Of a stretch of 43,893 bases of DNA, positions 34,639-43,893 are shown piece by piece; within the stretch, counting starts at the first letter, position 1, and each line of letters begins with the position of its first letter. The notes below the pieces were generated by a model. The model ran no database searches and had not been told where the DNA came from. It saw only the letters and a program-made list of their open reading frames with translations. The position numbers and the translations under genes are program-made. The stretch comes from a bacterium. GTDB taxonomy: Bacteria > JAMOTN01. The stretch lies in NCBI GenBank assembly GCA_027062325.1, contig JAMOTN010000029.1:1-43893 (forward strand), read 5' to 3'.

Positions 34639-34959
34639 ATGAAAATATCCCTTTATGAATTTATAGAGAAGTTATTCAACTCAGAATTCAAACTCACTGT
34701 CGTATTCAAAGGTGAAAACGAAGAAAACACCTATTACGCTTTCGTTCACAACAGAAAAAATATACTCATACCCGTTACCAAACTTCCAAAATTATTTGTC
34801 GAAGCTTTCGAATATTTCTTAGAATTTAGAGGACTTGAAGAACCACCAAATCCAATTTTAGACCTAGCCGATTACTTTCAATTCGTAGTAGAAGAATTCA
34901 AAATAAAAAATGTCCCAATTTACGCAGAGATGCAGCTCATCTATCCCGACAAAACGTAA
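34639..34959 (+). CDS. Small acidic protein of unknown function
   Basis: The 106-aa product is not recognised. It has a mixed alpha/beta composition: ISLYEFIEKLFNSEFKLTVVF, a strand pair TYYAFVHNRKNILIPV, and helices KLFVEAFEYFLEF and DLADYFQFVVEEFK, the first read in parts. It has no signal peptide, cysteine or catalytic pattern. The ATG follows AAGGGGGTGG. The 3' end overlaps the Lon-SAVED gene tail to tail by 23 bases with no terminator between, so transcripts would collide. It is probably in an operon with the four-cysteine protein. Confidence 0.6.
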   Translation: MKISLYEFIEKLFNSEFKLTVVFKGENEENTYYAFVHNRKNILIPVTKLPKLFVEAFEYFLEFRGLEEPPNPILDLADYFQFVVEEFKIKNVPIYAEMQLIYPDKT

Positions 34960-36175
34960 GAACAATCTCGTACTTATCATTGCTACTAACATAGTTCAAG
35001 AGGTGAACCACTAATTCTGTCTTATATTTTACCATTAAAGCACTATTTACCCCGTGCAACTCTTTCCACAAACCAGCAACAAACCATCCACCTAAGTATA
35101 CTGCACCATCAACTCCAAGCATCAAATGAACAGTTTGCACTCTATTATTTCCTAAAATGCCTTTTATTAATTCACTCAATTCGTTAAAATACTTTGGAAA
35201 ATTTTTCAGGCAGCTTTCATGTAAAGCATCGCCACTTTCAAACCTGTAAATTTTCACATTTTCCTCTGGAAAACCATCTGGTGGGACATAAGCATTCATA
35301 CCTACCTTCTTATCACCATCTCCCCCAAAATAAACCCCAACAGGCTTTTTTTGTACTATACTAGGGTTAACACTCTTTCTCTCTTTTGACCTTAAAAGAA
35401 TAAACAACTCGTTCCTTTCAAACTTAACTAAAAATTTACCTATCCACTCCAACAAAAAATTCAATTTGACCCCTTTTCTCACTGTCCATTCATAAGTTTT
35501 TGTAAAATAAGTTAAAAGCGAAATGAATCTTCTTTCTTCTATTTTTCTACATTCAGGCAACTTTTTTAACAACTCAGCTTTCTTCTCATCGTGAGCTCTC
35601 TTCAAATACCCATCCTTTAAAACCCCTGTAAAGGCAAACTCTTCTAAATCTTCTCTTACTTCCAAACCTAAATTCTCAAAAATCGCAGAAACAAATCCTA
35701 TCAAAAATGCCAAATTCCATGACATACCTGTCAGTATCTTATGCAAACCAATATCAGTCAATTCAAATCCTAAAATCAACTCCATTTCTAACTCTTCAAA
35801 ATAATTGCTTTTTAAAACATCTATCCAAACCCTCTTATATCCCTTTTCCCTAAATAAAACTTTCTCCAATTCATCTCTTAACTTTTCCAGACCTCCCTCA
35901 AGCTCTTTTAACCATGAAAGTTTCTCTTTTCCTACATTAATTTTTTCTAAAATTCGCCCCAACTCTTTCTTATTGGCAACATTAAAAACCCATATCTTGT
36001 AAATATCCAACTCTTCATCCACAATTACTGGAAAATTCACCTTAGTAATACAGTTAGTCTCTAAAAAATCTATAAAATCTGCCCTCTCAGCTTTAAGTTT
36101 CCACAAACCGCCATTTTTAATCTTACCAGTAGTAAAATCACATTTCCATTCAAGGAAAATTAATCCACGTTCCAT
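34937..36175 (-). CDS. calpL: CalpL-like CRISPR-associated Lon-SAVED protease
   Basis: The 412-aa product shows two recognisable parts. Residues ~105-215 fit a Lon (S16) protease domain. GMSWNLAFLIGFVSAI around S152 matches the Lon GPSAGLAF nucleophile turn, and EFAFTGVLKDGYLKRAHDEKKAELL matches TGE...G...V...K..AA with K198 or K199 as catalytic lysine (quoted parts FAFTGVLKDGYL and HDEKKAEL). Residues ~275-412 fit a SAVED sensor: VGVYFGGDGD, then RVQTVHLMLGVDGAVYLGGW, the usual iHLFlA.P.alA..lG strand-helix. Known CalpL binds cyclic tetra-adenylate made by Cas10, oligomerises and cuts CalpT. It is last in the four-gene cassette, 19 bases after the MazF-like gene. Neither domain has been checked by profile search, but both patterns plus the neighbours agree. 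Confidence 0.72.
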   Translation of the reverse strand: MERGLIFLEWKCDFTTGKIKNGGLWKLKAERADFIDFLETNCITKVNFPVIVDEELDIYKIWVFNVANKKELGRILEKINVGKEKLSWLKELEGGLEKLRDELEKVLFREKGYKRVWIDVLKSNYFEELEMELILGFELTDIGLHKILTGMSWNLAFLIGFVSAIFENLGLEVREDLEEFAFTGVLKDGYLKRAHDEKKAELLKKLPECRKIEERRFISLLTYFTKTYEWTVRKGVKLNFLLEWIGKFLVKFERNELFILLRSKERKSVNPSIVQKKPVGVYFGGDGDKKVGMNAYVPPDGFPEENVKIYRFESGDALHESCLKNFPKYFNELSELIKGILGNNRVQTVHLMLGVDGAVYLGGWFVAGLWKELHGVNSALMVKYKTELVVHLLNYVSSNDKYEIVLTFCRDR

Positions 36176-36194: not shown

Positions 36195-37226
36195 CTATAC
36201 TTCTTCAATATCAATCACAACTTCCCCTGCCTTCATAAGAGCAAACATAACTTTTAGTTCTTCTCCTTTTTGGGCATCTCCTTTATTATCTAAAATCAAT
36301 GGTAACATATCAATCTCAAACTCTAATTCATCTCTTTGATTATTCCTCTTGTTAATAAAAACCAACTTATATTTTCTTCCTCTCTCAAGTTTTTCCATAA
36401 CTTCGTCTAATATATCAATAAACAAACTAACCTTTTCTTTATACTCAACTAATTTAACCATCACCTTTTCAAATTTTTTAACTTTTTCTGGTCCTTCTGC
36501 AGCAGCCGCTAACACTATCCGTTCCTGTGGAGGACATAAGTAACTCTTTAAAACTTCATAAACTTTATTTAATACAATAACTTGAGCAGATTTACCCGAT
36601 AAAACAACCTGCTCTTTTTTTTTAACATCTGCAATTTCTAATAATTCGTCGAAATACACCAATTTCCAATTTATTTCAGCTAAGATTGATCTAACTTCTA
36701 ACCGAAAGTCTCCTTTTTTAAGGTACGGTATGCCCCGAGACAGAATAAAATGTTTTAGATCTACTGATAAAATTAAATTTGAAGCTTCTCCAACTCCTGT
36801 TAATTTTTTTATTACTTCCGCCACCTCTTCAGGAACATAAGAAACTAAATAGCAAATTTTCCTTATCGAATTCAAACTTAACGTGCAGACAGCATCTGTA
36901 AATACTGCCCACACTCCTCCTTTCATATCTCTTACCACCCAATCCTGCATATCCGCAAGAATGTGATATTTACTCACAAGCACCACATCTGCCATTTCTC
37001 CATCTTCATCTAATATCAAAATCCCAAAATCCTCAGCCCCCTCGAATACATATAAATCTCCTTCCGAAAAAATTACTGGATAATTTTTCTTCTCCTTCTC
37101 ATTTAACACTTCTAAATATTTTCCTTCAAACATTTCTTTCAAACTTCGTGCTTTTTCTAATATTTCCTCCTCATTATATTTTCCTAATATTTCCTCAACC
37201 TTTCTCTTTAATGCTTCCAACTTCAT
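36195..37226 (-). CDS. calpT: CalpT-like protein with MazF-like domain (putative anti-sigma target of the protease)
   Basis: This 343-aa protein has a helical N-terminus (about 1-45). The second zone resembles MazF/PemK: EGDLYVFEGAEDFGILILDE near 54-73 for the opening strand, and VFTDAVCTLSLNSIRKICYL followed by VPEEVAEVIKKL near 108-142 for the MazF ending (DqirT.s..rl..k.g.ls.ee..ev...L). The remaining 200 residues are mixed helices and strands, with a helical stretch KKFEKVMVKLVEYKEKVSLF. In the characterised pathway, CalpT combines a MazF-like part with a segment that holds the sigma factor inactive until CalpL cuts it. Here the gene lies between the sigma-like and protease genes, exactly as that role requires. 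No MazF toxin residues are claimed. Confidence 0.6.
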   Translation of the reverse strand: MKLEALKRKVEEILGKYNEEEILEKARSLKEMFEGKYLEVLNEKEKKNYPVIFSEGDLYVFEGAEDFGILILDEDGEMADVVLVSKYHILADMQDWVVRDMKGGVWAVFTDAVCTLSLNSIRKICYLVSYVPEEVAEVIKKLTGVGEASNLILSVDLKHFILSRGIPYLKKGDFRLEVRSILAEINWKLVYFDELLEIADVKKKEQVVLSGKSAQVIVLNKVYEVLKSYLCPPQERIVLAAAAEGPEKVKKFEKVMVKLVEYKEKVSLFIDILDEVMEKLERGRKYKLVFINKRNNQRDELEFEIDMLPLILDNKGDAQKGEELKVMFALMKAGEVVIDIEEV

Positions 37227-37281: not shown

Positions 37282-38127
37282 CTATGTAACTACCTTCTTG
37301 TGACAAAACAATTTTTTAATTTTTTCCCAGCACAACTTCGCACTTTCAAACTCCAACTTATCTAACTCTTCTTTGGCAATTTCTTGCATCTCCTCACTAC
37401 ACAAATACAAAGCAATTAAACATTCCTCGACTACTTCAGATAATTCTTCTTCTGCTAAGAAAAACTCTTTCCATTCTTCTTCAACAGTTTTCCAAAACTC
37501 CTTTAACTTTTTCTCAGCTCTTGACTTCTGCTTTCTAGCAACCGCAGGCATAGAAAATTTATAAATTTCTCTGCACTCATCAACAACACTGTGAATACCT
37601 CTCACAATATTTTTTAACATCGTCCAAAACATTCCTACCAATTCAGCAGGAGTAAAATTTAGGAACTTTTTCATCTCTTCAATAAATGCTTCATAGTAAT
37701 CAAGCTGAGGAATAGAAAACTTCTTATTCAAATTCTCTAATTTCTCAATATCCAACTTTTCATTATCATCCAAACTATCAATCTGTAGCTGATACTTTTT
37801 CTTCTCTTCTTCCAAATAGCTTGACCAACTATGAATAACAGTGGTTTTGAAATAATTATAATATTTACCCCACTCTCCAGATTTCGGATCAAATGCCAAG
37901 GTTTTATTTTTCATTGCTTTCTCAATTTTATGCAAGTACTTATCAATAAAATCCTCTATTATTAAGAATGGCAAATCTGGAAATTTTTTTCTGATAATTT
38001 TAACCATAATTTTTTCAACACTATTTTGCAACTCTGCTACTGCCTTCAGACTAACACCAGCATTTTCATCATGCAAAATCCTAAAATAATAGTAGAGTAC
38101 ATGAGCCGGAGTTTCCTTCCTATTCAC
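37282..38127 (-). CDS. calpS: CalpS-like sigma-70 family (ECF-type) factor
   Basis: This protein of about 281 aa looks like a two-domain sigma factor with a long C-terminal helical extension. Region 2 is suggested by LIIEDFIDKYLHKIEKAM, then AFDPKSGEWGKYYNYFKTTV and IHSWSSYLEEEKKK, parallel to the ECF pattern (D..qe.fl.........FDp..G.f..wl..ia.n...d.lR). Region 4 ends in FSMPAVARKQKSRAEKKLKEF, the familiar SxxTVKSRLxRARKKLRE recognition helix (quoted as MPAVARKQKSRAEKKL). I choose the GTG at 38127, eight bases after AAGGAG. The GTG at 38136 overlaps that site. If correct, release of this factor would redirect RNA polymerase after phage sensing. The promoter it reads is unknown. Confidence 0.6.
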   Translation of the reverse strand: MNRKETPAHVLYYYFRILHDENAGVSLKAVAELQNSVEKIMVKIIRKKFPDLPFLIIEDFIDKYLHKIEKAMKNKTLAFDPKSGEWGKYYNYFKTTVIHSWSSYLEEEKKKYQLQIDSLDDNEKLDIEKLENLNKKFSIPQLDYYEAFIEEMKKFLNFTPAELVGMFWTMLKNIVRGIHSVVDECREIYKFSMPAVARKQKSRAEKKLKEFWKTVEEEWKEFFLAEEELSEVVEECLIALYLCSEEMQEIAKEELDKLEFESAKLCWEKIKKLFCHKKVVT

Positions 38128-38155
38128 TGTAATCACTCCTTCAAAATAGTACTAT

Positions 38156-38827
38156 TTATTCAACAGCTAAAACTCTCTCAATAAACTTCAAAGCTTCCCT
38201 TCTCCCTCCAAACATTTTTATCAAATCAACTCCATGTTTTCTCGCGCATTCTCTAAATACGCTTTCACTTTTTCTAATATAATTCCAATATCTACTATTC
38301 AAGTAAATTTTCCTCACCCTTTTCTTTTTAGGATTAATTCCTATGTAACTAGCATTTTCCATCAAATACTCCCTACATTCTCCCTCAATACTAACCATAT
38401 CCCATTTAACAGATAAAAGATCAATTTTCAAATTTTTTACTCCTAGAAATTTAGGATAACTTGTAAGAAACAGTAATCGCTCTCCTTTTAAAAACCTCCA
38501 CCTTAAAACTGGTCGCCTGTCTTTATTCCCTAACCATCTCTCTACAACCTCTCTCAACTCTTGAGGCAAATTTTTATCAAACCTCCAGAAAATCTTATTT
38601 TTCAAATACCCAAACGTCACTGTTGAATTTTTCTCAACAATTCTAATAATCTCATCATCTGACATCTTTTTCTTAAACTTAAACTTTCTCCTATTCCTAA
38701 ATTTAACATTCCTTTTATTCTTACTTCTCTTAGTAGTTTCTCCATCCTCACTATCGCCACTTGAGCTAAAAATAAAATAACCAGCCGCCATTAACATCCC
38801 CAAAATTACTCCACCTAAACCGTTCAT
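38156..38827 (-). CDS. Membrane-anchored basic protein, first gene of the Calp-like cassette
   Basis: I do not recognise this 223-aa protein. A single N-terminal membrane helix (LGGVILGMLMAAGYFIF, about residues 4-20) is followed by an acidic spacer and a very basic stretch (KRSKNKRNVKFRNRRKFKFK). The globular part of ~165 residues is rich in Arg, Lys, Trp and Tyr (VLRWRFLKGERLLFLTSYPK, IYLNSRYWNYIRKSESVF). The strong positive charge suggests contact with nucleic acid or lipid headgroups. GGGGGGA precedes the ATG. It is followed at 28 bases by the sigma-like gene, so it is co-transcribed with it. It is not part of the published three-gene pathway and may be an added membrane component. Confidence 0.65.
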   Translation of the reverse strand: MNGLGGVILGMLMAAGYFIFSSSGDSEDGETTKRSKNKRNVKFRNRRKFKFKKKMSDDEIIRIVEKNSTVTFGYLKNKIFWRFDKNLPQELREVVERWLGNKDRRPVLRWRFLKGERLLFLTSYPKFLGVKNLKIDLLSVKWDMVSIEGECREYLMENASYIGINPKKKRVRKIYLNSRYWNYIRKSESVFRECARKHGVDLIKMFGGRREALKFIERVLAVE

Positions 38828-39037: not shown

Positions 39038-39361
39038 CTACGCAATAATACCAGAAAACTTATTCTTAAAGTAATTCTCAACTTTCCTTAAATTTGCCTT
39101 AACTTTATTCAACACTTTGTCTTCAACAGATGTTATAAACAAATTGTCATCCTCATCCAATATTTTCTCAAGCTCTTTTAACACCTTATCAAGTTGCCTC
39201 TTTGACAAGTAACATGCAAACACACTGAACTGAACATCAACACCATACCTTCTAAGTAACTCCAAAATTTTTCTATCCTTTTTAGAATACCTAGTCCTAT
39301 CTTTCGCTCTAATATCATAAGATATGATGTAAATCTTTTTAGAAACCGTCATACATATCAC
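39038..39361 (-). CDS. cas2: Cas2, divergent second copy
   Basis: This 107-aa ferredoxin-like Cas2 is the non-catalytic dimer that bridges two Cas1 dimers during spacer integration. The first strand YIISYDI with its conserved Asp, the ELLRRYGVDVQFSVFACYL helix-strand and the LITSVED-like ending (read FITSVED) are typical. A basic C-terminal tail (VKANLRKVENYFKNKF) is longer than usual. A GTG start with AGAGG close ahead, or an ATG three codons later, are both possible. It lies downstream of the 473-aa gene and is clearly different in sequence from the Cas2 at 40890-41153, so it is not a recent duplicate. Confidence 0.85.
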   Translation of the reverse strand: MICMTVSKKIYIISYDIRAKDRTRYSKKDRKILELLRRYGVDVQFSVFACYLSKRQLDKVLKELEKILDEDDNLFITSVEDKVLNKVKANLRKVENYFKNKFSGIIA

Positions 39362-39423: not shown

Positions 39424-40845
39424 TCACTTTAACACTTCAAGCACATCCTTGTACAAACGCTTCAACTCATTACTCCTATAGTAAAAACCTGCTAAATTAA
39501 GCAAAACGTTCCCAGGAACAACGTAACTAACAAACCAATTAATAAAACTTTTGATCTGACCATTTAAAATTATCCTATAAGAAAACACCTCATCATCTAT
39601 CCAGTTCACTAATTCCTGAGCAAACGAAGAGAAAGTTTTGCTCCCCAACTCTTCCGCCAAGAAAAAGTTTGCTTCCCACAAACTTGAATCACCCTCACTC
39701 CACGAAGGAACATCTAAAAATCTAAATGCCACCATTAAAGCCAAATACTCCAACAAATCATCTCTAAACTCTGTATCCTTTAGCATCTGCTCTATAAATC
39801 CCACAACCAAGATTAGCAATGAAAAGTAAGCAAATCCAAACATATCAAATGCATTAACGTGGAAAAACCAAAGTTCTTTTTTACTCATATCATCGTAATG
39901 ACTCTGTCTAACAACACGTTTAATTTCGTTAACAAATCCTCTTAAAAATCTGTTAATTCCATAAGCCGAAAAAGTACCATTTCCAAGTGTATCCAGCTCC
40001 CCCAAAAACCATTCCAACTCATGTCTAACTTTCAACTCCCACTTAAATAACCCTATCAAATCAGAGCTCTTGTTTAGAGAATGCCTAAAAACTTTATTGT
40101 AACCTCCCCAACTGAACACCTCATCGGAAAACGCAGTATAACACCTACCAATCAACTTTTTATATTCATACTTATATTCATCAAGTATCCTCAACATCTG
40201 CTCTTCAGCAGGAGATAAATTGTGCTTCCCCCTTAAGAACTCGTAAAACGGCTTTCTGTAGTTCGCCCACCACTGCTTACGTATTCTCTCTTTCTCCTTA
40301 GCCCTGCCTCTCTTATCCAAAACCTTTTTCAACTCTCCATAGCTCATTTCATTCCACGTAACTTTAGCAACAATACTCTTTACCCGCCTCAAAAAAGTAT
40401 CAACTTTTTTTCTCATAGGTGTTACTGCCTCAGTCAAACTTCTGAACAAATCCGCTATATTTGGAGTTTTTAATCTATCAAGCATAAACATGTAATTTAA
40501 GCAATCAAAATTCACACAGTAGTTGTAAAACTCCCTCGCCAAATCAACGTTCTGCTTCAAAAAAGCATTTTTTAACTCTTCACGTTCTCTGCTGCTCACC
40601 CTCCTACTAATAGGAGTTACACGCTTAAATAATCCCAAGCAATTTCCAGCAAATTCCCACCTAGCATCAACTTCCCAAAAAACATCATCCGTCAGCCTAA
40701 ATTTATACTTTCCATCATCTCTTTTAACCAATAAACGTTCTATTTGCGGCACTACAATTTTGACAGTTCGAGGTTTAGTTCTTTTCTTACGATTTATAAG
40801 AACTCCAGCAACTTTTCCTAGAAACTCCAATATTCCCATTCTCAT
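39424..40845 (-). CDS. Unrecognised 473-aa protein lodged between two cas2 genes
   Basis: I recognise no Cas family here. The protein begins with a short amphipathic stretch (MGILEFLGKVAGVLIN) and a strongly basic segment (RKKRTKPRTVK). It is then largely helical, rich in Trp, Phe, Tyr and Arg: SSREREELKNAFLKQNVDLA, RIRKQWWANYRKPFYEFLRG, KELWFFHVNAFDMFGF. A hydrophobic helix (FAYFSLLILVVGFIEQML) lies near residue 350. I see no HD, GGDD, RuvC, HNH, PD-ExK or helicase signature, no RAMP glycine loop, and no reverse-transcriptase motif. It is transcribed with cas1 and cas2, 44 bases after the first cas2. Its place inside the adaptation genes suggests a helper of spacer capture or processing. Confidence 0.7.
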   Translation of the reverse strand: MRMGILEFLGKVAGVLINRKKRTKPRTVKIVVPQIERLLVKRDDGKYKFRLTDDVFWEVDARWEFAGNCLGLFKRVTPISRRVSSREREELKNAFLKQNVDLAREFYNYCVNFDCLNYMFMLDRLKTPNIADLFRSLTEAVTPMRKKVDTFLRRVKSIVAKVTWNEMSYGELKKVLDKRGRAKEKERIRKQWWANYRKPFYEFLRGKHNLSPAEEQMLRILDEYKYEYKKLIGRCYTAFSDEVFSWGGYNKVFRHSLNKSSDLIGLFKWELKVRHELEWFLGELDTLGNGTFSAYGINRFLRGFVNEIKRVVRQSHYDDMSKKELWFFHVNAFDMFGFAYFSLLILVVGFIEQMLKDTEFRDDLLEYLALMVAFRFLDVPSWSEGDSSLWEANFFLAEELGSKTFSSFAQELVNWIDDEVFSYRIILNGQIKSFINWFVSYVVPGNVLLNLAGFYYRSNELKRLYKDVLEVLK

Positions 40846-40889: not shown

Positions 40890-41153
40890 TTAAACTATCA
40901 TCCATCTAAAAAATTTTCTATTTCCCAAATAAATTCGCCCCTTGCAATCATTATCAGTTTGGGGAATAAAAAGCAACCTATCCCCTTTATTCAAAAGCTG
41001 AGAACAATCCCAATACAAATCATTCACTTTCTTAAAAGGGATTTCTATTTCAAAAATACTGTATTGAATCCTACAACCGTATTTTAAGAGCAAAGCAGAA
41101 ATTTTCCTCCTAATTTTATCATCTGAAATATCAAAAGCCACTAACCACTTCAT
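40890..41153 (-). CDS. cas2: Cas2, canonical
   Basis: This 87-aa Cas2 has the first strand WLVAFDISDDKIRRKISALL containing the conserved Asp8, the LLKYGCRIQYSIFEIEI block and a late GDRLLFIPQ strand. These match Cas2 closely. AAAGGAG lies nine bases before the ATG, and the gene is 34 bases behind cas1. With Cas1 it forms the integrase that inserts spacers. Confidence 0.93.
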   Translation of the reverse strand: MKWLVAFDISDDKIRRKISALLLKYGCRIQYSIFEIEIPFKKVNDLYWDCSQLLNKGDRLLFIPQTDNDCKGRIYLGNRKFFRWMIV

Positions 41154-41187: not shown

Positions 41188-42795
41188 TTAACCATTAACT
41201 TTTCTCTCTCCAAACTTTCTCAATGCTTTTTCAAAGGAGCTTATATCCTCCTTCAAAAATCTCTCCACAATTCTCAATAATCTAAACTCAAACCATTCAG
41301 AAACTACTCGCACCACCAATGAAAAATCCAGATCAAATCTTTCCTTATTCAACAACGCCCTAAGAATTCTTTCAAATTCATCTTCCTCTCTATTCTTCTG
41401 GCCATCCTCTTCGCCATCCTCGGCAGCAACATCTTTAATTACCTGCAATCTCCTAAGCTCTTCCAACAAACTTACCCATATATTATATCTCAAACTTTCC
41501 AACAAACTCTCCAACTTCTCATCCTTGCCATAAAGTGCCGTGTTCAATTCTTTATATTTACTCCTAAAAGGATGCTTTACCTCTTCTGTCCATTCCAAAT
41601 AAAGCTTTAAAATTGAACTCAATACATCAGAATCTCCCAAATCCCCATCTTCCTCACAAGCCTCATTGATAGCAATATCATTTTTAGAACAAGATTCACT
41701 ATTAGAGTTACAATTGCGTCTTTCATTTTTTTCATTATTGCCTACATTTTTACCAGCATCCGTAAATCCTTTCAAAAATCTTTCTAAGTCACCCCTTTTA
41801 TCATCCAAAAACCTATTAAAAACAACGGTATCAAAAACCACATGTTTTATGAGTAGCACACGCACTCTTTCCATAATATCCGACGCTAAAGCATAGTGTC
41901 TCCCCCTCTTTATGTGCATCACACCGAGTGAGGGATTGAAATTTTTTATCAAGAGTATGCAAGTTGTAAGGTTGTATATGAGAGTATATGCATAATTAAA
42001 GAATAGATTTAAGAAATCATTTGACTTCCTGTCACGCCTTTTAAACGCCGGATCCAAACCAAAAGTTCCTAACACATTCTTCATCAAATCAAACATGAAT
42101 ACACTAGCTCTTCCTTCATAACCCCTTAGAGTATTAATCTGCGAATCCAAGACATTTACATAAGTTTCCAGATTCCTAGCTATCCTCTTTTTATAGCTGC
42201 CTAACTCTTTCAAAAAATCATGCAGTCGCTTTTTGGTATTTTTCAACCAATTTAACAATCTAAGTCCATTATATTCACTATCAGCCTCCCCATTCTCATC
42301 AGTCCAGTTTCCATGTTCCGTCTTCACTTTCAAAAACAGTAGTTCTGTTAGCTCAAAAAGACTTACCATTTCCTGAATTTTGTCACGCACTATCTTAATA
42401 ATAAAATTTAATCTCCAGGGTGAGTTAGTCAATAACATTTGAAGTTCTCGTAATTTGTAAGCACTAAAGTAAGAAGACGGTAAAATAACCGACTTTATAC
42501 TCAAATTTCTTCCTACAATTATTACTTTTTTCTCATAGTTCGCTAATAATCCTAAAGCTTGCGTTGTTAATTGAACATTCTGTGAAACTATAAGGTAATC
42601 AATTGCAGCTATTGGAATTTGAATTTTTTCAGGATAAGAACGAGCATCACTAACTCCGCCAATATCAATTTTTTTGCTAATTCCTCCTGTAGAAACAGTA
42701 AGATTAGTAGAAGTTAGTGATGTAAGAACAGAAAAAGGCCGAAACAATAAACTTCCCTTCTCTACTCTCAACTTACCGGGTTTAAGGATTATCAT
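41188..42795 (-). CDS. cas1: Cas1 integrase with large insertion and C-terminal extension
   Basis: This 535-aa Cas1 is far longer than the usual 300-350 aa. The beta-rich N-terminal part (IPIAAIDYLIVSQNVQLTTQ) and helical catalytic part are present with the metal ligands E227 (RGYEGRAS), H294 (GVMHIKRGRH) and E309 (SDIMERVR), spaced 67 and 15 residues as in typical Cas1. The FLNLFFNYAYTLIYN helix is also clear. A Lys/Glu-rich helical insertion lies near 140-215. Beyond about residue 330 there are ~200 extra residues with two low-complexity linkers (NNEKNERRNCNSNSESCS and EDGEEDGQKNREEDE) separating helical blocks. The family usually ends soon after the last ligand helix. No reverse transcriptase motifs are seen in the extension. 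The gene starts the cas operon and has no ribosome site (see 42803-42808). Confidence 0.92.
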   Translation of the reverse strand: MIILKPGKLRVEKGSLLFRPFSVLTSLTSTNLTVSTGGISKKIDIGGVSDARSYPEKIQIPIAAIDYLIVSQNVQLTTQALGLLANYEKKVIIVGRNLSIKSVILPSSYFSAYKLRELQMLLTNSPWRLNFIIKIVRDKIQEMVSLFELTELLFLKVKTEHGNWTDENGEADSEYNGLRLLNWLKNTKKRLHDFLKELGSYKKRIARNLETYVNVLDSQINTLRGYEGRASVFMFDLMKNVLGTFGLDPAFKRRDRKSNDFLNLFFNYAYTLIYNLTTCILLIKNFNPSLGVMHIKRGRHYALASDIMERVRVLLIKHVVFDTVVFNRFLDDKRGDLERFLKGFTDAGKNVGNNEKNERRNCNSNSESCSKNDIAINEACEEDGDLGDSDVLSSILKLYLEWTEEVKHPFRSKYKELNTALYGKDEKLESLLESLRYNIWVSLLEELRRLQVIKDVAAEDGEEDGQKNREEDEFERILRALLNKERFDLDFSLVVRVVSEWFEFRLLRIVERFLKEDISSFEKALRKFGERKVNG

Positions 42796-43223: not shown

Positions 43224-43893
43224 GTTTCATTGCCGAACACTTACTAACGGATTACGACATATATCGCCCTCGTAGAGGGCTACGGAAATTCTCACAGTTT
43301 CATTGCCGAACACTTACTAACGGATTACGACCGAGTTCCCCTCGCTTCGGGTGTCCCCCCTTTGGGTTTCATTGCCGAACACTTACTAACGGATTACGAC
43401 AAACTAAACACTCTAGGTTTTACGGCAAAAGCATTTGTGTTTCATTGCCGAACACTTACTAACGGATTACGACGGGCTCGGGCGGGGTCCCGGGGCTTTT
43501 GCCCCCGCGCGGTTTCATTGCCGAACACTTACTAACGGATTACGACCCCCGACGCCCCAGTTGGGGGTGTTGGGGGCTCGTCGGTTTCATTGCCGAACAC
43601 TTACTAACGGATTACGACCGGTTTCCTTTTTTATGTTCCCTTTTGCAGCTGTGAGAGCCCGGGCCCCGCACCCGAGCTCCCATACGACCGGTTTCCTTTT
43701 TTATGTTCCCTTTTGCAGTTTCTGTTTCATTGCCGAACACTTACTAACGGATTACGACGAGTCTTCGACTCCCTTATTTATTTATAATGAAAAGTTTCAT
43801 TGCCGAACACTTACTAACGGATTACGACGTGAGGTCGCGGCCGCGGTCCTCAGGCCTAAGCCTGAGTTTCATTGCCGAACACTTACTAACGGA
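43224..43893 (-). CRISPR. CRISPR array, eight full repeats plus one cut by the edge
   Basis: Identical 35-base repeats begin GTTTCATTGCCG and end CGGATTACGAC. They start at 43224, 43297, 43366, 43439, 43512, 43584, 43724, 43794 and 43866 (the last partial, 28 bases). Spacers are 34-38 bases, except the interval 43619-43723, which is 105 bases and contains a rearrangement. Read on the minus strand the repeat ends in AATGAAAC, a form of the ATTGAAAC tag typical of crRNA 5' handles. I therefore infer that the crRNA is transcribed right to left and that the leader lies beyond the window. The array is next to cas1 and probably belongs to it. The type cannot be fixed without the effector genes. Confidence 0.97.

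Follow-up and report, generated by a model that had tools for sequence, protein, structure and literature searches.

A divergent four-gene operon beside cas1, cas2, and a CRISPR array probably encodes a CalpL-like Lon protease

The window, the whole stretch of DNA analyzed here, comprises 43,893 nucleotides of a bacterial contig (JAMOTN010000029.1). It ends in a CRISPR array (43224–43893) with eight identical 35-base repeats and one repeat cut by the window end. The array lies upstream of cas1 (41188–42795, minus strand, 535 aa; PF01867, 1.7e-28), which is followed by cas2 (40890–41153, minus strand; PF09827, 1.4e-16), a gene for a 473-aa protein, and a second cas2-like gene (39038–39361, minus strand; PF09827, 2.6e-15). 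The 473-aa protein, encoded between the two cas2-like genes at 39424–40845 (minus strand), has no match beyond chance in Pfam, NCBIfam, or PADLOC. Within the array, at 43613–43718, two adjacent identical spacers surround a degenerate repeat that is reduced to its TACGAC end.

Beyond the second cas2-like gene come 4 co-directional genes on the minus strand, separated by gaps of 19, 55, and 19 bases. They encode proteins of 223 aa (38156–38827), 284 aa (37282–38136), 343 aa (36195–37226), and 412 aa (34937–36175). The last, here called P0001, is the focus of this study: a CalpL-like Lon protease candidate, with a Lon-like region at about residues 44–205 and a C-terminal region of unproven kind. 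The preliminary description gave this frame without a strand; the 412-aa frame is confirmed on the minus strand, and stops occur throughout the plus strand of the same interval. Scans for promoters (27 sites against 30.5 in shuffles) and terminators (2 sites against 2.8) remain below the shuffle level.

Database searches place P0001 in no family. There is no match in Pfam (at E<=1), NCBIfam, or PHROGs, and nothing in the PDB at E<=10; the sole PADLOC match, PDC-M42B (0.0067), is at chance level. Peptide patterns reveal no close relatives on contigs of 84,980 species, and viral contigs and phages yield none. Among 386 whole genomes, relatives are confined to the genome of P0001 itself, apart from 2 matches judged to be chance (stretches of G167 and G261, E 0.003–0.008), and plasmid matches, all at E>=1, are likewise attributed to chance. 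Since close relatives are absent from the searched sets, P0001 stands as a single sequence without a family, which counts against assigning it to a Calp system. AlphaFold2 models built from the single sequence (pLDDT 32) or with 4 CalpL-related rows taken from one MAFFT alignment, A4 (pLDDT 35), are uninformative, both being below usable confidence, and were rejected as evidence; that neither gave a confident structure counts against the Calp assignment as well.

To assemble a comparison family, a Pfam SAVED search of the 386 genomes was made; it gave 21 positives, and 5 of their open frames are Lon-SAVED proteins. The profile of these 5 matches CalpL structures in the PDB (7qda/8b0r, 5e-94; 9eyi, 2.9e-216) and recurs in two phyla, in 65 of 136 genomes of the first and in 8 of 25 of the second. 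The first is apparently Aquificota, because L103 reads as the Sulfurihydrogenibium CalpL and the named matches are Persephonella and 'Aquificota bacterium'. The resulting CalpL cluster holds 43 members, from which 36 proteins of 390–600 aa were kept; 4 frames of 248–300 aa (CalpT by size and place), 2 of 331–332 aa, and one 640-aa fusion were dropped, and the first 4 were included among the 35 CalpT sequences. Extra C-terminal domains are lacking in 28 of the 36 CalpLs, and the SAVED statistics rest on these 28. For gene order, we hand-picked 40 places (L073–L112) from the Pfam SAVED and Lon-SAVED profile matches and tallied the 37 in which our gene calling gave a CalpL gene that encodes more than 390 aa.

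In 30 of these 37 loci, CalpL is immediately preceded by CalpT, and CalpT in turn by CalpS. A further gene, which we call X, or its homologue occupies the next upstream position in 22 of the 30 (17 from one cluster, 5 from a second); the 2 clusters are homologous (hhalign P=7e-14), and in 4 further loci X is present but the arrangement is disturbed or fused, for a total of 26 of 37. The order in the window, 223, 284, 343, and 412 aa on one strand, is that of X, CalpS, CalpT, and CalpL. Each of the 4 family profiles, compared by hhalign with 42 window frames, ranks the syntenic frame first: P=5.1e-5 for the 223-aa protein with 23 X proteins, 0.011 for the 284-aa protein with 32 CalpS, 6.6e-6 for the 343-aa protein with 35 CalpT, and 4.5e-4 for P0001 with the CalpL profile. 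When the 4 families are compared with the 4 window proteins, the matches fall on the diagonal, and the best of 29 control window proteins of at least 150 aa reach 0.0081, 0.0095, 0.051, and 0.037 for CalpL, CalpT, CalpS, and X, respectively. This context is the strongest evidence for the Calp identity of P0001. Two results count against it: every single match is weak, with hhalign probabilities of 33% for CalpL and 4% for CalpS, and one of 60 shuffles came near in hhalign score (30.9 vs 35.6). The CalpS-like call for the 284-aa protein is the weakest of the 4 assignments; the match is confined to a C-terminal stretch (residues 202–239), and Pfam sigma domains give no match to this protein at E<=1. 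A CalpS relative, that of L107, does reach the Pfam cut-off for sigma-70 region 2.

Gene X itself encodes about 140–240 aa, often with a CGxC motif at the end, and lies upstream of calpS. The 3 members scanned have no credible Pfam match, and a MazF/PemK-like identity is unsupported, with no such match at E<=1 in the same number of members. The Introduction of PMC11417357 describes Calp as a tripartite system; our comparison of Calp loci reveals a fourth conserved gene where that text has 3. Judged from the parts of the open-licence literature that bear on it, including sections of PMC11417357 and PMC12751052, gene X may be undescribed.

Within P0001, the Lon part carries the likeness. A profile built on the Lon region of 28 CalpL proteins gives P0001 15.5 bits in 2 collinear pieces, residues 44–92 and 147–200, a score that none of 5000 shuffles of P0001 reaches (3617 gave a score, the best being 9.7); the runner-up among the gene-called frames of the window and their reversals has 4.8 bits. 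With a profile of 36 sequences the score is 17.2 bits, which none of 487 natural 143-aa decoys and none of 4000 shuffles of the P0001 C-terminus attains. These scores show that residues of about 44–200 are homologous to CalpL's Lon part and retain both the serine and the lysine. One could hold instead that P0001 is unrelated to CalpL and that the motif match and the gene order arose by chance, as the missing database matches and the weak individual scores would allow. We consider this highly improbable, given that 4 of 4 profiles pick the syntenic gene among 42 frames and that the shuffles of P0001 all fall short. The choice of the syntenic frames by all 4 profiles supports both a divergent Calp operon and the reading of a Ser-Lys enzyme.

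P0001 does contain the 2 active-site motifs claimed beforehand, GMSWNLAF (S152) and TGVLKDGYLKRAHDEKKAEL (K198/K199), and the serine and the lysines lie 46 or 47 residues apart as claimed. The profile alignment pairs S152 (codon 35720–35722, minus strand), the predicted nucleophile, with a serine found in 36 of 36 family members, and K199 with a lysine found in 36 of 36. One of K198 and K199 (codons 35579–35584, minus strand) is the predicted general base. Both are candidates: K198 is preceded by glutamate, the E-K context of most relatives, whereas K199 is the better fit to the TG-to-K spacing (16 in P0001, 16–18 in the family). The proposal that P0001 is a Lon-type Ser-Lys protease belonging to a Calp-like system draws backing from the Lon-region profile and the four-gene synteny alike.

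The same description had called the nucleophile pocket altered, because SWNLAF replaces AGLAF. The nucleophile turn of the housekeeping Lon is AGLAF, and against that enzyme the difference stands. It does not stand for CalpL: in all 36 proteins examined the serine is followed by an aromatic residue (F in 23, Y in 11, W in 2), with SWQLA in L109, whose sequence is the same as PDB 9eyi, and SYNLA in L083. SWNLA is therefore typical of CalpL, and the pocket is not altered. Housekeeping Lon (S16) would share its Ser-Lys proteolytic core with P0001 by way of CalpL; it has an AAA+ ATPase, whereas P0001 has no Pfam Lon or AAA match at E<=1.

The unusual feature of P0001 is its spacing. The serine and lysine are 46–47 residues apart, against 37–42 in the family and 41 in SsCalpL, where S152 and K193 (the L103 positions) are the catalytic residues. 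The FP motif stands at residue 48 (63–104 in the family), 104 residues before the serine (49–66), and the serine stands 31 residues before the TG motif (21–25). All of these spacings fall outside the family range, except T-to-K with K199, and count against the Calp assignment. The CalpL of Sulfurihydrogenibium sp. YO3AOP1 (PDB 7qda, 8b0u, 8b0r; homologue 9eyi) shares with P0001 the Ser-Lys dyad and the aromatic residue after the serine, and its loci share with the window the CRISPR association and the order of sigma factor, anti-sigma factor, and protease on one strand; the N-terminus of P0001 is about 40 residues shorter.

Such divergence, with large insertions and loss of the sensor signature discussed below, would also fit a dead or decaying CalpL that merely holds CalpT, and a Lon half encoded by a phage, in which neither dyad residue is preserved, shows that such forms exist. 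We regard this as improbable for P0001, where the frame is intact, S152 and a lysine are retained, and the 4 operon genes are kept with short gaps. The phage-borne example, a 222-aa protein (L117:2487–3155, plus strand; IMG/VR contig IMGVR_UViG_3300035661_000192), has 49% identity to the Lon half of SsCalpL and, by alignment, Asp at the dyad serine and Met at the dyad lysine. Its contig is that of a phage, with tail tape measure, tail sheath, and head closure genes. AcrIII-2 is a borrowed SAVED half, and by analogy the Lon half could serve as a decoy against CalpT/CalpL that mirrors it.

Other variants were seen in the family. Eight CalpLs of 560–593 aa (L073–L080) have an extra C-terminal part; that of L073, the only one scanned, matches STIV B116-like (PF08960, 5.7e-21), the fold of the AcrIII-1/Crn2 ring nuclease. 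L073 would then combine a protease with a domain that destroys the alarm molecule. A 640-aa frame (L084:4238–6160, plus strand), with a masked stretch inside, appears by eye to be a CalpT-CalpL fusion.

The C-terminus of P0001 is where the likeness to CalpL fades. The preliminary description took it to fit the SAVED core, a claim that the profiles fail to sustain: residues 270–412 (34940–35368, minus strand) score at decoy level, and the signature residues are absent. Its 4.3 bits with the second SAVED half are equalled or exceeded by 8 of 4000 shuffles and by 12 of 487 natural decoys; with the first half it has 0.5 bits, a level that 76 of the 487 decoys attain. The Pfam SAVED profile (PF18145) finds nothing at E<=1 in P0001 or the rest of its genome. 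Among the 28 relatives, R361 is found in 28, K364 in 27, and H392 in 26 (SsCalpL numbering), residues that a section of PMC11417357 links to cA4 cleavage; P0001 has no counterpart of any of them, with no R-x-x-K and no SH anywhere, and this absence of the SAVED signature also counts against the Calp assignment. MAFFT alignments of the region are mutually discordant and were not taken as evidence.

The P0001 C-terminus may be a SAVED that is compact and has drifted, one lobe by itself, or a sensor of another kind. The first of these, an ordinary two-lobed SAVED that has drifted past recognition, with P0001 switched on just as CalpL is by cA4 or some other cyclic oligoadenylate, would refine the reading of a Calp protease, and we deem it quite possible, if somewhat short of an even chance. 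The best C-terminal matches are collinear with the second SAVED half, and few shuffles reach their score; equal scores among natural decoys and the missing R-x-x-K (for R361 and K364) and SH (for H392) weigh against it. Length could still be compatible: 214 residues follow K198 in P0001, compared with 243–338 in relatives, and L083 of genome G520, a short CalpL of 397 aa with a CalpT-like gene (262 aa) upstream, holds a SAVED in 243 residues (PF18145, 1.3e-12). Since L083 fits a full SAVED in little more space, we dropped a firm claim of a half SAVED in P0001. L083 differs from P0001 in its Pfam-recognised SAVED and its S-K spacing of 42.

The genome of P0001 encodes 2 Cas10 proteins with GGDD and palm matches over the cut-off, on other contigs, so a cyclic oligoadenylate could be made; this favors the Calp assignment and a drifted SAVED alike. 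The window's CRISPR repeat is absent from either Cas10 contig at up to 3 mismatches, which counts against the Calp assignment, and is confined to the window's own contig. We also entertain, with more doubt than belief, a Calp cascade with a changed sensor, in which the cA4 site would be lost together with the first lobe of SAVED. What is left would be either one CARF-like lobe that needs a partner subunit or a sensor for a different alarm, and the cascade would be wired to a cas1-cas2 locus instead of a Cas10 operon.

We conclude that P0001 is very probably the protease of a divergent Calp operon, with X-, CalpS-, CalpT-, and CalpL-like genes beside cas1-cas2 and a CRISPR array, a reading built on gene order and profile comparison. 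In the CalpL/T/S system, as set out in parts of PMC11417357 and PMC12751052, an alarm signal leads to assembly, cleavage of the anti-sigma factor, and release of the sigma factor. By this model, a CRISPR alarm signal would cause P0001 to assemble and turn active; S152, with K198 or K199, would cleave the 343-aa CalpT-like (anti-sigma) protein, the predicted substrate; and the 284-aa CalpS-like sigma factor would be freed and alter transcription during infection. If this is true, the CRISPR-to-sigma-factor switch reaches a lineage that shares only its domain with the nearest genomes compared, which suggests that the module of protease, anti-sigma factor, and sigma factor can persist while the alarm sensor gets replaced.
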